Of a stretch of DNA of 31,723 bases, positions 1-31,723 are shown in pieces. Made by a program: the position numbers and the translations under genes. The DNA is from a virus: positions 1-31,723 of the IMG/VR virus record IMGVR_UViG_3300035183_000956, one strand, 5' to 3'. Position 1 is the first letter of the stretch; every line of letters starts with the position of its first letter. The notes under the pieces are model-generated. The model saw nothing but the letters and a program-made list of their open reading frames with translations, had not been told where the DNA came from and made no database searches.

Positions 1-697
1 GCGGGCCCTTTCCCAGGTGCGCTACGCCGCCAGCAGGGAGGATTGGCGGGCTGTCTTCCGGGGGGTGCAGCTGGAGTTCTCCGACCAGGGTTTCCGGGCT
101 GTGGCCTCGGATGGCTACCGCCTGGCTCTCTTTGACCTGGAGAGACCCCAACCCTTCACCAAGAAGGCCGTGGTCCCGGCCAGGAGCGTGGACGAGCTAA
201 TGCGGGCTCTGAAAGGGGCCGAGGGCGAGGTAGACCTGGCCATCGGGATCAGCACTATGACCATGGCGGCGCGGCGAGAGGAGGGGGTCGTGCGCATGGC
301 GGTGAGGCTCATGGAGGGGGAGTTTCCCGACTACGAGCGGGTTATCCCCAAGGAGTTCGCCCTCACCGCCGCGTTTGACGTGGGGCCCTTCCGGGATGCC
401 CTAAAACGCGTCTCGGTCCTGGCCGACAAGCAGAACCACCGGGTGGACCTCTTCCTGGAGGAGGGGCGGGCCCTCCTTTCCGCCGAGGGGGACTACGGCA
501 AAGGGCAGGAGGAGGTCGCCGTTTCCCTGGAAGGGGCTCCCATGACTCTGGCCTACGATGCCCGCTATCTCCTGGACGCGCTGAGCCGGGTGGAGGGGCG
601 AGCGGTGATGCGGTTCTCGGGGCAGTTTGAGCCCACCCTCATTGAGCCCGCCGATGGGGGCGGGTATCGGGCGGTGGTGGTGCCGCTCAGGGTGTGA
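1..697 (+). CDS. dnaN: DNA polymerase III beta sliding clamp, C-terminal two thirds (split by the circle junction)
   Basis: This is the 3' part of a clamp gene whose 5' part lies at 31181-31596; joined across the exact 127-bp end overlap they give a 370-residue protein, close to the usual length of bacterial beta clamps (about 365-380). Clamp signatures are visible: SDGYRLA (the counterpart of TDGHRLA in E. coli), EGEFPDYERVIP in the middle, and a C-terminal PTLIEPADGGGYRAVVVPLR that matches the family's ending before the last beta strand. The protein should form a ring that tethers a polymerase to DNA. No phage polymerase is visible, so the partner is probably host DNA polymerase III (inference). 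The first complete codon in the window is at position 2; the internal GTG at 17 is not the real start. Confidence 0.92.
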   Translation, partial: RALSQVRYAASREDWRAVFRGVQLEFSDQGFRAVASDGYRLALFDLERPQPFTKKAVVPARSVDELMRALKGAEGEVDLAIGISTMTMAARREEGVVRMAVRLMEGEFPDYERVIPKEFALTAAFDVGPFRDALKRVSVLADKQNHRVDLFLEEGRALLSAEGDYGKGQEEVAVSLEGAPMTLAYDARYLLDALSRVEGRAVMRFSGQFEPTLIEPADGGGYRAVVVPLRV

Positions 698-1600: not shown

Positions 1601-1771
1601 ATGGTCGCCATTCTAATCAGCTACCTTCTGGCCCTCCTGGCCACCATCGCCACCGTGGCCTGGGCACTCAGGGGTGGTAGGCAGGCCCCTGAGGGGGCGG
1701 TAGTGGGGTACATGTGGCTCTTCCTCTTCTGGTGGGGCGTTATCGCCCTGATATGGGGGGCGCTGAGGTGA
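1601..1771 (+). CDS. Small two-helix membrane protein, 56 aa
   Basis: A 56-codon frame follows the previous gene with a GGGAGGTGAT ribosome site. It encodes two hydrophobic segments (residues about 2-22, ILISYLLALLATIATVAWAL, and about 37-54, YMWLFLFWWGVIALIW) separated by a short polar loop containing RGGRQ. This is a typical small phage membrane hairpin protein. It is far from the lysis cassette, so a holin role is less likely than membrane targeting of another kind. Its stop overlaps the next gene's possible GTG start (GTGA), consistent with translational coupling. Confidence 0.65.
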   Translation: MVAILISYLLALLATIATVAWALRGGRQAPEGAVVGYMWLFLFWWGVIALIWGALR

Positions 1772-2103
1772 TCTCTATCCGCGTTGCCAACCGCAAAAAC
1801 ACCAGGGAGGGGCGATACGTGGGTAGGCCGACCCCTCTGGGGAACCCTTACCGGGTGGAGGCGTTTGGGCGAGAGGGGGCGGTGCGCAGGTACCGTGATT
1901 GGTTCGCTCGGGTCAAAGGGGAAGGGAAAGTGGCTCGGGCTCTGGCTGCGCTGGAGAGGGAGGCCGAGAAGAGGAAAACGCTCACGCTCCTCTGCTGGTG
2001 TGCTCCCGAGCCCTGCCACGCCGAGGTGGTGGCGGAAGAAATAGCCTCCCGGCTGGAACGAAAGGGGTACCGAGTTGAGGTGCGTGTAGATGGCAGAAGT
2101 TGA
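1753..2103 (+). CDS. DUF4326-type protein
   Basis: The N-terminal VANRKN, the central VGRPTPLGNPYRV and the C-terminal LTLLCWCAPEPCHAEVVAEE match the conserved pattern of the DUF4326 family, small proteins common in phages and other genomes, whose biochemical role is not established as far as I know. The CWC...CH cluster could bind metal (inference). The ATG at 1753 gives 116 residues and begins within the preceding membrane-protein gene; a GTG at 1768 overlapping its stop is an alternative, and a GTG at 1714 would add an unconserved extension. Function is unknown; base-modification or nucleotide-related activity would be a guess. Confidence 0.75.
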   Translation: MGGAEVISIRVANRKNTREGRYVGRPTPLGNPYRVEAFGREGAVRRYRDWFARVKGEGKVARALAALEREAEKRKTLTLLCWCAPEPCHAEVVAEEIASRLERKGYRVEVRVDGRS

Positions 2104-2302
2104 CCCTCGCAGGTGCAGGTACCTGCACCTGAGGTACCGGCCCAATCGGGGTCGCCGGGCACCCCTAACCCGCCCGGAGCTAGGTCCTGGGTCCGATTCC
2201 CAGGTAGGGCGAACCCCATATCTTGGCTGGCTAGCTAGCGTCCCTTCCACCCGCGGGGCCTCGGAGGGCCGGGGGGCTCCGTGGGGTGGATGGGGTGTAT
2301 AG
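2090..2302 (+). CDS. Doubtful 70-aa frame over a structured segment
   Basis: This frame has a plausible GAGGTG ribosome site seven bases before its ATG, and it neatly fills the space between the DUF4326 gene (14-base overlap) and the next gene (8-base gap). Against it, the product is low-complexity, rich in Arg, Pro and Gly, with no recognisable fold, and the DNA holds a perfect 22-bp palindrome and tRNA-like stems. I think the segment may work as DNA or RNA; the frame may be incidental. Confidence 0.3.
   Translation: MAEVDPRRCRYLHLRYRPNRGRRAPLTRPELGPGSDSQVGRTPYLGWLASVPSTRGASEGRGAPWGGWGV
2110..2131. repeat. 22-bp perfect palindrome
   Basis: The half-site CAGGTGCAGGT is followed immediately by its reverse complement ACCTGCACCTG with no spacer, centred on GGTACC. 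Within each half, CAGGT is itself repeated (CAGGT-G-CAGGT). A loop-free palindrome suits a dimeric protein site better than an RNA hairpin. A further GAGGTACC follows at 2131-2138. Confidence 0.85.
2140..2211 (+). ncRNA. tRNA-like element or degenerate tRNA remnant
   Basis: The segment has tRNA length (71 bases plus discriminator). A T-arm-like hairpin CCTGGG-TCCGATT-CCCAGG lies at 2186-2204, with a B-box-like GGTCCGATTCC. A D-arm-like stem GGGG/CCCC (2148-2151 with 2162-2165) has a GG-containing loop. The ends GCCCAAT and GTAGGGC (2140-2146, 2204-2210) can pair six of seven positions including one wobble. No proper anticodon stem or U33 is found, so it is not a normal functional tRNA. It could be a decayed tRNA, a tRNA mimic, or chance in GC-rich DNA. 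Confidence 0.35.
2246..2290 (+). repeat. Nested GC-rich stem before the next gene
   Basis: TCCACCC (2246-2252) pairs with GGGTGGA (2284-2290), and inside it CGGAG (2262-2266) pairs with CTCCG (2277-2281). The structure ends about ten bases before the AGGAGGG ribosome site of the next gene, so in RNA it could influence translation. Confidence 0.4.
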
Positions 2303-2310
2303 GAGGGAGT

Positions 2311-2607
2311 ATGAGCAAAAGGACTGAGCGCGGGAGCATTTTTGAGGTCGCCGGGATTCCAAAATCCCGGTGGAAGGCCGCCGTTCGGGAATCCATGTCG
2401 TATGCCCGCCGGTATGTGGTGGGGCTGGACGGGCTGGTCTACCCCTCCAGCGTGGCCGTCCGGCGTGGGGTGGATGGCTACCCCGTGTCCTCCGACCGGG
2501 TGGCCCTCGGGATGGCCAGGCTCATCCGGGCCGGGCGGGTACGGGACGCTGAGCGTAGGTGGCTCCATCACCTGCGCCAGAGCGGTGGGGATTTATGGGA
2601 CGAGTAG
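2311..2607 (+). CDS. Hypothetical protein, 98 aa
   Basis: The gene starts at ATG 2311 after a GGAGG ribosome site four bases upstream; an earlier in-frame ATG at 2281 lacks one. The product is basic, with a middle that could form a small beta sheet (VGLDGLVYPSSVAVRRGVDGYPVSS) and a C-terminal helix rich in Arg and His (ARLIRAGRVRDAERRWLHH). No family recognised. Its end overlaps the RusA start by 13 bases, so it is in the same transcription unit and may be a DNA-binding accessory (inference from charge and location only). Confidence 0.65.
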   Translation: MSKRTERGSIFEVAGIPKSRWKAAVRESMSYARRYVVGLDGLVYPSSVAVRRGVDGYPVSSDRVALGMARLIRAGRVRDAERRWLHHLRQSGGDLWDE

Positions 2608-2963
2608 CCACGGGCACGAGACTGGAGGTCAGGCTACCCTGGCCGCCATCGGTGAATCACTATTGGAAGACCCGTGGCAACCGGCGCTACATATCTCCCA
2701 TGGCCCGGGCATGGCTCAACGAGGCGGTTCCGCTCCTGCGTGCTGCCAGGGTGCGGTTTGATGGGCAGGTGCGTGTCCGTATGTACCTCTCCCCGCCGGA
2801 TAGGCGCACGCGGGACGGGGACAACCTGGAGAAGGCCATCATGGATGCCCTAGTCAGGGCGAGGGTAATCAAGGACGACTCCCTAAAGTACGTCAGGAAG
2901 TCTTGCAAGGAAGTCCTGGATGAGTACATGGGCTATGTCCTCCTAGTGGTAGAGCCGGTGTAG
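2595..2963 (+). CDS. rusA: RusA-family Holliday junction resolvase
   Basis: RusA enzymes are small dimeric nucleases that cut four-way DNA junctions, clearing branched DNA before packaging. The family pattern is clear: LPWPPSVNHYWKTRGNRRY near the N-terminus, then PPDRRTRDGDNLEKAIMDAL with the acidic DGDN catalytic cluster, then VIKDDS, where the second aspartate pair contributes to metal binding. At 122 residues from ATG 2595 it matches the normal length (about 120). A GGTGGGG sequence precedes this ATG; an upstream GTG at 2559 would add an unconserved extension. It works downstream of RecT-type recombination and feeds packaging by the terminase encoded just after it. Confidence 0.92.
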   Translation: MGRVATGTRLEVRLPWPPSVNHYWKTRGNRRYISPMARAWLNEAVPLLRAARVRFDGQVRVRMYLSPPDRRTRDGDNLEKAIMDALVRARVIKDDSLKYVRKSCKEVLDEYMGYVLLVVEPV

Positions 2964-28666: not shown

Positions 28667-28685
28667 TGGGACTTTGGAGGGTCAA

Positions 28686-28961
28686 ATGGGGACTCTACCA
28701 TTTACCGTAGTTCTGCAGGATATTTGGGCCGCGCGCGACCTAGATGCGCACGCGAAACTCCTGCTCATCTACCTAGCTGAGTCGGAATCTAAACGGCAAC
28801 CATGGGTGCGAGTGCGTGATGCGGCCAGGGCGCTGGGACTCAGGCCGAGCAGGGTTCTGGCCGCCCTCTACCGGCTACATGGACAGGGGTACATACGGTT
28901 GGGAATGGAGGACACCGACTCGCGGCAATGGTTCAGAACCAAATGGACCGGCTGGGAGTGA
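28686..28961 (+). CDS. Small winged-helix protein, 91 aa
   Basis: ATG 28686 has GGAGGG five bases upstream; the TTG at 28674 is the alternative. The pattern LDAHAKLLLIYLAESESKRQ, WVRVRDAARALGLRPSRVLA, ALYRLHGQGYIRLG is a winged-helix DNA-binding domain very like the N-terminal domain of the initiator gene at 29117 (ETIVLIYLALRAGEKGVCWP...). It may be a duplicated DNA-binding domain that regulates the origin or the operon. Confidence 0.7.
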   Translation: MGTLPFTVVLQDIWAARDLDAHAKLLLIYLAESESKRQPWVRVRDAARALGLRPSRVLAALYRLHGQGYIRLGMEDTDSRQWFRTKWTGWE

Positions 28962-28972
28962 GGAGGTAGACG

Positions 28973-29056
28973 ATGCGGCGGCGTGGCGGTACAATAACGG
29001 CAAAGGGCTCCCCGCCGGGAGCCCTGAGCGAAAGGAGGTCTAGCGATGGACCATAG
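28973..29056 (+). CDS. Possible small basic protein, 27 aa
   Basis: ATG 28973 has AGGAGGT five bases upstream. The 27-residue frame is Arg/Gly-rich and overlaps a 9-bp hairpin (29004-29025). It could be a leader peptide; there is little other support. Confidence 0.3.
   Translation: MRRRGGTITAKGSPPGALSERRSSDGP
29004..29025 (+). repeat. 9-bp perfect hairpin
   Basis: AGGGCTCCC (29004-29012) and GGGAGCCCT (29017-29025) pair around a four-base loop. AAA precedes and no T run follows, so a leftward-facing or partial terminator or an mRNA structure is possible. Confidence 0.5.
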
Positions 29057-29129
29057 TCATTATATACCACACAACCCGCTCAGCGCAACCCCACTCCGGT
29101 GGGGGGGAGGTCTAGCATGTACGAGATGA
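29046..29129 (+). CDS. Possible 27-aa leader peptide before the initiator gene
   Basis: ATG 29046 follows AAAGGAGGTCTAGCG, and the frame ends 13 bases inside the initiator gene, whose own ribosome site repeats GGAGGTCTAGC. The overlap could couple translation of the two. The product (MDHSHYIPHNPLSATP...) resembles nothing known to me. Confidence 0.35.
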   Translation: MDHSHYIPHNPLSATPLRWGGGLACTR

Positions 29130-30214
29130 CCAACGCAATCTGGGAACTGGACGAGTTGACGACAACGGAAACAATAGTCCTCATATACCTGGCCTTGAGG
29201 GCTGGGGAGAAGGGCGTGTGCTGGCCATCGCTGGCCACAATCTCGCGGCACACGAAACTGAGTGCCAGCGGCGCGTGGAAAACGCTCCGGCGGCTCAGGG
29301 AGAAGGGACTTATCAGCTGGGAACGTGATGGCTACGGCAATAACGTTTACCGCATAAACGCCGCCGCCATTATGGGGGCTACGGTAGCGAAGAAGGAGGG
29401 GGATTATGACGAGGTAAGAGAGGGTGTGTTACCTGGTCATAGAGGGGATTATGACCAGGTAATAGAGGGTATAGTACCAGGTACTAATCCCATTAGTACC
29501 AGGTACCAGAGGGATTATGACCAGGTACCAACTAACAAGTCATTAAACATACCATTGAACAAACCAATAAACACCGTACCCTCCACTGTGGCCACGCACA
29601 CAGTTAGCCAACCTGGCGAACCGCAGGCAGCGCGGCGGGGGGAAAGTCAGGTAGAAACCCCCAAACCCCCGAAAACCCAGGACACCTCTCCTAACCGGAA
29701 CCTGAACTTTAGCTCCGGTAAAACTATCCCGGCCGGCGCGGCTGAACCGGCTCCAGACTCCGGCCCCCGCCCAGCGGCCACGCACAGCGTCCAGGCGCAC
29801 GTTCCCGGGCCACGGCCCACCGGCTACCCCTACTCCCCCGAGCGTGGGGCGCTGGTGAAGTCCCTCAGGGATGCTGGGCTCTGGGAGAGGTTCAACGGGC
29901 TCCTCCGCCGGCACGCCAGGGATGAGCGGGCGTGGTGGGCGTGGCTGGATAGGCTGGCCCCCGAGCACCAGCGGCTGAACGGGCATTTCGCGGAGGCCGT
30001 GCGGGCCGCCCTGGATCGGCTGGAGGCCTGGCCGGATGCCAAATACCCCTTCTCGGTGGTGGAGAAGGTGGTCCGGGAATACACGCCGCCACCGCCGAAA
30101 CCGGAGCCGGACCCCTACATGGCCGCCGGGGAGGCCGTGCGGAAGGGTGATTTCGAGGAGTTCATTGAGTGGTTGCAGTCCCTGCCTGTTGAGGAGGATA
30201 ACCATGTGGCATAG
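29117..30214 (+). CDS. Replication initiator-like protein with winged helix
   Basis: The N-terminal domain (residues about 10-75: ETIVLIYLALRAGEKGVCWP, SLATISRHTKLSASGAWKTL, RRLREKGLISWERDGYGNNV) is a winged helix typical of phage replisome organisers such as the lambda O class, which bind iterons in their own genes. The middle (about 85-235) is low-complexity Pro/Thr/Ser-rich linker, and the end (about 240-365) is a helical domain (LVKSLRDAGLWERFNGLLRR; FSVVEKVVREY) that may load host helicase. ATG 29117 follows GGAGGTCTAGC; the ATG-like start at 29099 lacks support. The gene contains the iteron array at 29401-29528. Confidence 0.75.
   Translation: MYEMTNAIWELDELTTTETIVLIYLALRAGEKGVCWPSLATISRHTKLSASGAWKTLRRLREKGLISWERDGYGNNVYRINAAAIMGATVAKKEGDYDEVREGVLPGHRGDYDQVIEGIVPGTNPISTRYQRDYDQVPTNKSLNIPLNKPINTVPSTVATHTVSQPGEPQAARRGESQVETPKPPKTQDTSPNRNLNFSSGKTIPAGAAEPAPDSGPRPAATHSVQAHVPGPRPTGYPYSPERGALVKSLRDAGLWERFNGLLRRHARDERAWWAWLDRLAPEHQRLNGHFAEAVRAALDRLEAWPDAKYPFSVVEKVVREYTPPPPKPEPDPYMAAGEAVRKGDFEEFIEWLQSLPVEEDNHVA
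29401..29528. repeat. Six iterons on a 22-bp pitch, probable replication origin
   Basis: ACCAGGTA occurs at 29454, 29476, 29498 and 29520, spaced exactly 22 bp. A variant ACGAGGTA lies at 29409 (45 bp before the first), and an inverted TACCTGGT at 29430-29437 fills the slot between. Three of these sites (29401, 29446, 29512) extend to GGATTATGAC(C/G)AGGTA, and two (29472, 29494) to TAGTACCAGGTAC. A 22-bp pitch does not fit codon triplets, so the pattern is kept at DNA level. Confidence 0.88.
29528..29585. other. AT-rich stretch next to the iterons (possible unwinding element)
   Basis: The bases following the last iteron (around AACAAGTCATTAAACATACC and CCAATAAACACC) are far more AT-rich than the rest of this genome, as expected for a DNA-unwinding element beside iterons. 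It is inside the linker-coding part of the initiator gene. Confidence 0.6.
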
Positions 30215-30566
30215 CGAACTCGGGCTGTCTGAGGACGCGCTGATTTTTGACCTCGGGGCGTGCCCCTGGTGCGGCCAGGAGTTCATTTATGTCGCCCAAA
30301 ACGGCATGGCCGCCGGGCGCAAACCGCCGGACGATTGCTGCACTAGGGGCACCCTCGCCGCCGTGGCCCGCATCAGCGCCGCCATGCACGGGAGGCTGGG
30401 GCAGGACGAGCGGGAGTACCTGGCCCGGGAGGCTAGCCGGCTCGCGGCCAGGCTCCGGGAGGTGCCACAGGATGAGCTGCGGGCGGCGGCCAGGGAGGTG
30501 GAGGGGCGCTACGCGCTGAGGGTGGACTGGGCCGCCCTTTTGGCTCGGGTGAGGAGGGGCGCATGA
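30204..30566 (+). CDS. Small protein with cysteine cluster, 120 aa
   Basis: ATG 30204 follows GAGGAGGATAACC and overlaps the initiator gene by 11 bases. C20PWC23 and C44C45 (GACPWCGQEFIY; PDDCCTRGT) suggest a zinc site, followed by helices (RISAAMHGRLGQDEREYLAR; ASRLAARLREVPQDELRAAA). It is not a recognised family; location between initiator and nuclease hints at a replication accessory. Confidence 0.65.
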   Translation: MWHSELGLSEDALIFDLGACPWCGQEFIYVAQNGMAAGRKPPDDCCTRGTLAAVARISAAMHGRLGQDEREYLAREASRLAARLREVPQDELRAAAREVEGRYALRVDWAALLARVRRGA

Positions 30567-31180: not shown

Positions 31181-31723
31181 ATGCTGGTTAGGCGAGACCT
31201 CATGAAAATGGCGTTGGCCCTGGCCAGGGGGGTTGCGCCCTCCGGCCGCGTCCTCAATCCGCTCTGGACCTACCTCTACCTGGAAGGGCGGGAGAAGGAG
31301 TTGGTGATTAGGGCCGCGAATGAGGAGGTAGACCTGGAGGTGCGCCTGCCCGCGATGGGGGAGGGGGGTGGCCCCGTTCTGGTTCCCGCCGCCCCGTTCA
31401 TTCGCGCTGTGGAGAACGCTCCGGGGGATGTGGACGAGGAGGGCCGGGAGGTGGTCATCCTCATCCGGGAGGGGCAGGTGGAGGTGAGCGCGTGGCCCTG
31501 GAAGGCCACCATAAACGCCGCTGACCTTGAGGGATTCCCCGCGTGGCCCGAGTTTGACACCACGCTCCGGACCCGAATGGATGCCCAGGAACTGGTGCGG
31601 GCCCTTTCCCAGGTGCGCTACGCCGCCAGCAGGGAGGATTGGCGGGCTGTCTTCCGGGGGGTGCAGCTGGAGTTCTCCGACCAGGGTTTCCGGGCTGTGG
31701 CCTCGGATGGCTACCGCCTGGCT
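31181..31723 (+). CDS. dnaN: DNA polymerase III beta sliding clamp, N-terminal part (continues at position 1)
   Basis: ATG 31181 follows a strong GAGGAGGTGAAGG ribosome site. The first 181 residues encoded here are the clamp N-terminal domain and the start of the middle domain (MLVRRDLMKMALALARGVAP; VVILIREGQVEVSAWPWKAT; LEGFPAWPEF, the counterpart of the 'aeeFP..p' loop). The last 127 bases equal positions 1-127, so the frame carries on at 2-697 to a full 370 residues. Placed immediately after the nuclease and before the small-gene block. Confidence 0.92.
   Translation, partial: MLVRRDLMKMALALARGVAPSGRVLNPLWTYLYLEGREKELVIRAANEEVDLEVRLPAMGEGGGPVLVPAAPFIRAVENAPGDVDEEGREVVILIREGQVEVSAWPWKATINAADLEGFPAWPEFDTTLRTRMDAQELVRALSQVRYAASREDWRAVFRGVQLEFSDQGFRAVASDGYRLA
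31597..31723 (+). repeat. 127-bp terminal direct repeat (circle closure)
   Basis: Bases 31597-31723 are identical to bases 1-127. An exact repeat of 127 bases in a coding gene is what an assembler leaves on a circular or circularly permuted molecule when it uses a 127-base overlap, rather than a biological terminal repeat. The true circle is 31,596 bp. Confidence 0.92.

Follow-up and report, generated by a model that had tools for sequence, protein, structure and literature searches.

A probable lambda O/oriλ-type replication origin within the initiator gene of a presumed Thermaceae phage

The window analysed here is the whole of IMG/VR virus record IMGVR_UViG_3300035183_000956, 31,723 nucleotides in length and presumably from a hot-spring virus of Thermus type, and the locus under study is an O-like replication initiator gene (29117-30214, + strand, 365 aa), assigned by Pfam, PHROG and AlphaFold. 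The N terminus matches Pfam HTH_36 (2.1e-10), and the protein matches PHROG 391, 'replication initiation O-like' (2.1e-15), as well as the replication initiation families PHROG 1032 and 270, in agreement with the initial annotation, which had read it as a winged-helix initiator. The AlphaFold confidence profile divides the chain into a confidently predicted winged helix (residues 1-95), a low-confidence, disordered linker (about 95-237) and a helical C-terminal domain (241-355). An array of six iterons lies under residues 96-139, within the linker, and is followed by an AT-rich, A-biased arm (29533-29580, + strand), presumably the melting element. Directly upstream of the initiator, a second small winged-helix ORF (window 28674-28961) is weakly O-like; its DNA is 81% conserved in L002, an IMG/VR sequence in which the ORF is joined to further coding sequence, and it may be a relic of an earlier initiator N terminus.

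The iterons have their dyad centres at 29412, 29434, 29457, 29479, 29501 and 29523, in steps of 22, 23, 22, 22 and 22 bp. Iteron 1 (29403-29421, +, ATTATGACGAGGTAAGAGA) matches at 4 of 8 dyad positions, iteron 2 (29425-29443, -) at 5, iteron 3 (29448-29466, +, ATTATGACCAGGTAATAGA) at 6, iteron 4 (29470-29488, TATAGTACCAGGTACTAAT) at 7, iteron 5 (29492-29510, +, ATTAGTACCAGGTACCAGA) at 6 and iteron 6 (29514-29532, +, ATTATGACCAGGTACCAAC) at 5. The repeats originally described, plus-strand ACCAGGTA at 29454, 29476, 29498 and 29520 and the variant ACGAGGTA at 29409 (+), are exact, as is the minus-strand copy of ACCAGGTA at 29430-29437; the latter fills the missing slot to within 1 bp, its centre lying 23 bp from the next. 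All five exact copies of ACCAGGTA in the 31.7-kb window belong to the array. All six sites are imperfect palindromes: they match at 4-7 of their 8 dyad positions, where the background averages 2.1; the most palindromic, TAGTAC-CAG-GTACTA at 29479, has no meaningful orientation, and the other five reach 4-6 of 8. Because the sites are imperfect palindromes, their orientation means little and the 'inverted' second iteron is no anomaly. The view that a single inverted site is unusual was therefore mistaken; in lambda, too, the iterons are inverted repeats, to which O binds as dimers (PMC7466680, PMC6022878).

As the array is coding DNA, synonymous-codon shuffles were used as the null for an array-chaining score that accepts sites in either orientation at a pitch of 19-25. 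The initiator gene scores 28, which none of 300 shuffles reached (mean 12.1, maximum 20). Among 1-kb tiles of the window, the next-best scores are 19, in a tile overlapping the array, and 14; the median is 10 and nothing away from the array exceeds 14. As a positive control, lambda O was scored in the same way, and exactly its four annotated iterons were recovered, with a score of 21 against a null maximum of 12 in 40 shuffles. The chaining score took the place of a fixed-lag autocorrelation test, which proved too blunt for a pitch varying from 21 to 23. These numbers bear on whether the repeats could simply reflect a repetitive peptide or codon bias, a reading that could appeal to the coding nature of the array and to the 21-bp (7-codon) steps seen in some relatives, such as Lalka. 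We consider it scarcely credible: the 22-bp step rotates the reading frame, synonymous shuffles destroy the array, the linker over it is predicted to be disordered, and relatives keep palindromes and pitch while their peptides are entirely different. The original statement that the 22-bp pattern is not an amino-acid repeat is thus borne out.

The AT-rich stretch that had been noted directly after the array is real: positions 29534-29573 are the AT-richest 40 bp of the entire record (72.5% AT in a genome of 65% G+C). The composition of 29531-29580 is A24 T9 G3 C14, and the A bias in the 50 bases after the array (A24/T9) is close to that in lambda (A28/T8). Repeats of 12 nt within the AT arm stand out in Riverbug, L002 and Cumys and are weak in the window itself. 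They were considered as a conserved DNA-level element and not secured as such: most lie in one reading frame, as four-codon repeats, and a different frame is used for the motif only in Lalka. Further along, Riverbug (L005 2278-2310) and Lalka (L007 2500-2525) share CCCCCCCCTATAATCCCCCCCC after the origin, in different reading frames, and Cumys has a counterpart of the form C8-TTTAT-C8.

The arrangement closely resembles that of phage lambda, where O dimers bind iterons that are inverted repeats of 18-19 bp, an AT arm comes next and the origin lies within O, the N-terminal half of which binds DNA while the C terminus binds P (PMC7466680, PMC4488673, PMC6022878, PMC3349717). Here too, the initiator gene contains near-palindromic sites of this kind, flanked on the same (right) side by an AT-rich, A-biased arm. 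As in lambda O, a DNA-binding N-terminal domain, a flexible linker and a C-terminal partner domain follow one another (PMC4488673, PMC6022878), and the lambda array underlies residues 117-145 of 299, compared with 96-139 of 365 here. The proposed lambda-type layout, with a mid-gene array and an AT-rich arm directly to its right, is thus the layout of oriλ, and we class the origin with this known type for that reason. There are also differences. Lambda has four iterons at a pitch of 20, 24 and 23, whereas we find six at 22, 23, 22, 22 and 22; the site sequence here, xTxACC-n-GGTxAx, is another one; the similarity between the two initiators is of family level, strongest in the winged helix; and the presumed host here is thermophilic. 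In number of sites, the Shiga-toxin phages 933W and P27 come closer, having six iterons in gene O with an adjoining AT-rich region, although site sequence and host differ and their two extra iterons are bound weakly (PMC7466680).

How does the array fare in related phages? L002, Cumys, phiMa, Riverbug and Lalka all have palindromic arrays in the corresponding part of the gene, mostly with a pitch of 21-23 bp and with differing site sequences. The Thermus phages among them (Cumys, phiMa, Riverbug and Lalka8/27a) share with the window a homologous initiator and an A/C-rich strand after the array, whereas their half-sites are different (GTGGTGCAC, GTGGTCAAC, TGGTGAAC, TGGTGCAC). The comparison with related genomes suggested by the initial annotation thus shows the pitch kept while codons, peptides and site sequence change, and relatives that have the protein were found to carry the pattern, the opposite of the case that would have spoken against it. 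In L172, which has a different winged helix, C/G-rich inverted sites do not rise above the sequence's own low-complexity null. Riverbug has a good array, but the winged-helix region of its initiator is displaced by an apparent RusA-resolvase coding sequence in another frame (L005 1848-2080); its N-terminal binding domain seems to be missing or recombined, which counts against the lambda-type reading. Beyond these phages, a scan of 147 O-like genes of phages and prophages from many bacteria found 87 that outscore their own shuffles by a margin of at least 4; with six shuffles per gene, it is a survey rather than a fine test. Neither iterons nor a replication origin is mentioned in the main text of the 2024 publication describing these Thermus phages (PMC11437467), and our literature searches turned up no account of an origin of this kind in phages of Thermus or of Thermaceae.

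How the locus changes can be seen in more detail from the closest relative, L170, which covers more of the L002 contig. Its DNA is 81% identical to the window over 28797-29040 and 80% from 29582 on, with no blastn match in the block between (29041-29581, + strand), which holds the winged helix, the iterons and the AT arm. At the protein level, identity is 73% in the C-terminal part of the initiator and 39% in the winged helix. Because homology is absent exactly there, between flanks of about 80% identity, we conclude that winged helix, sites and AT arm were replaced together. Elsewhere, window 1616-2883 is 79% identical to L170 and includes a 316-aa minus-strand ORF that matched no family. Within the wider family, the strongest covariation among all pairs of protein columns and half-site bases links recognition-helix column 53 to base ±6 (z 8.2): Gln occurs with C in 22 rows and Arg with G in 11, the crossed combinations in none, and a further 9 rows have T or A. 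The column 53 residue changed about six times on the best tree, which is poorly resolved, and twice on well-supported branches; with so few independent changes, the Gln/Arg covariation is suggestive rather than proven. The window's own initiator has W at this position. Together, the block exchange with L170 and the family covariation, with its few independent changes, support the view that winged helix and iterons form one specificity unit. In the lambdoid phages, O specificity has been mapped by means of hybrid phages (Furth and Yates 1978, as cited in PMC6022878).

The gene downstream (30204-30566, + strand) overlaps the initiator: its ATG at 30204 lies inside the initiator's end, the stop codon of which is at 30212-30214, much as lambda P overlaps the stop codon of O. 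It encodes a 121-aa protein with a CPWCG...CC motif, a candidate initiator partner or helicase loader. The gene is conserved directly downstream in L002, Cumys, phiMa, Riverbug, L171, L172 and L173. In Lalka, a gene for a DnaB-type helicase stands next to the initiator in its place. Whereas the next gene in lambda is P, this ~120-aa Cys-motif protein has a confidently predicted fold (pLDDT 87) that found no match in PDB or BFVD, and its sequence matched neither lambda P nor any known family. A role as helicase loader would be a guess from its position.

The record carries an exact 127-bp direct terminal repeat (window 1-127 and 31597-31723) and can be read as circular, with a closed length of 31,596 bp; a DnaN-like sliding-clamp gene spans the record ends. 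The terminase shares 60% identity with its counterpart in Thermus phage Riverbug and also lies close to those of Meiothermus phages; the host is hence very probably a bacterium of the Thermaceae. Direct DNA searches of phage records found nothing, and single-sequence searches of genome contigs found no relative. The ORFs tested included no recognisable helicase, primase or polymerase, and the phage would have to recruit the host replisome. The GC skew of the closed circle, which had been suggested as a check, has its minimum at about 26.5 kb and its maximum at about 8.3 kb; this is loosely compatible with the proposed origin and not decisive, in a genome in which nearly all genes run one way.

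We propose, with a probability of about 0.89, that 29117-30214 contains a lambda O/oriλ-type intragenic replication origin of a Thermaceae phage. The N-terminal winged helix of the initiator would bind each of the six near-palindromic, ~19-bp iterons as a dimer. The spacing of two helix turns would place all dimers on one face of the DNA, wrapping it into a compact complex, and this complex could strain and open the adjacent 40-50 bp of A-biased, AT-rich DNA (29533-29580). The C-terminal domain would then bring in the host DnaB helicase, either directly or with the small protein from the overlapping gene. The same winged helix fold resembles regulators of the MarR/ArsR type, palindromic sites are frequent in operators, and extra copies of the lambda origin inhibit replication (PMC3349717, PMC4488673); the sites might hence mainly be an autoregulatory or immunity operator, through which the initiator limits its own transcription or excludes related phages, with replication starting elsewhere. 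We regard this as improbable, given that six in-phase sites with a directly adjoining, strand-asymmetric arm, the AT-richest of the record, have the anatomy of an origin, that the families matched by the initiator are replication initiators, and that the C-terminal domain and the overlapping partner gene are retained together. Still less probable in our judgement is that the array serves as a partition or centromere-like site or as a recombination hot spot instead of an origin: its neighbours include no recognised partition genes, and both its location, inside a gene for an O-like initiator, and the AT-rich arm follow the lambda pattern, even if iterated palindromes occur in centromeres too, one weak fold match points to a plasmid centromere-binding protein (4rs8), and block exchange does occur here.

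The origin proposed here would extend the lambda-type intragenic origin to phages of the Thermaceae, with a site-by-site anatomy. As O-like genes widely carry recognisable arrays, origins of this type could be read automatically from phage genomes. The natural exchange of winged helix and cognate sites offers matched pairs for studying how initiator specificity changes, and structural work would be well served by a thermostable O-type initiator with a possible new loader. It is tempting to generalize further, to O-like initiators whose origin specificity resides in a self-contained block of ~0.5 kb (winged helix, palindromic iterons and melting arm) swapped between conserved flanks, with the half-site read by the recognition helix through a simple Gln-C/Arg-G rule at ±6 and, in Thermus phages, a small, previously undescribed Cys-motif helicase loader replacing lambda P; we put this forward as a speculative idea, possible rather than probable. 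On a smaller scale, Lalka27a (L006 2376-2549) differs from Lalka8 by an exact 87-bp tandem duplication in the iteron array and AT arm, and iteron number therefore changes by duplication between sister phages.
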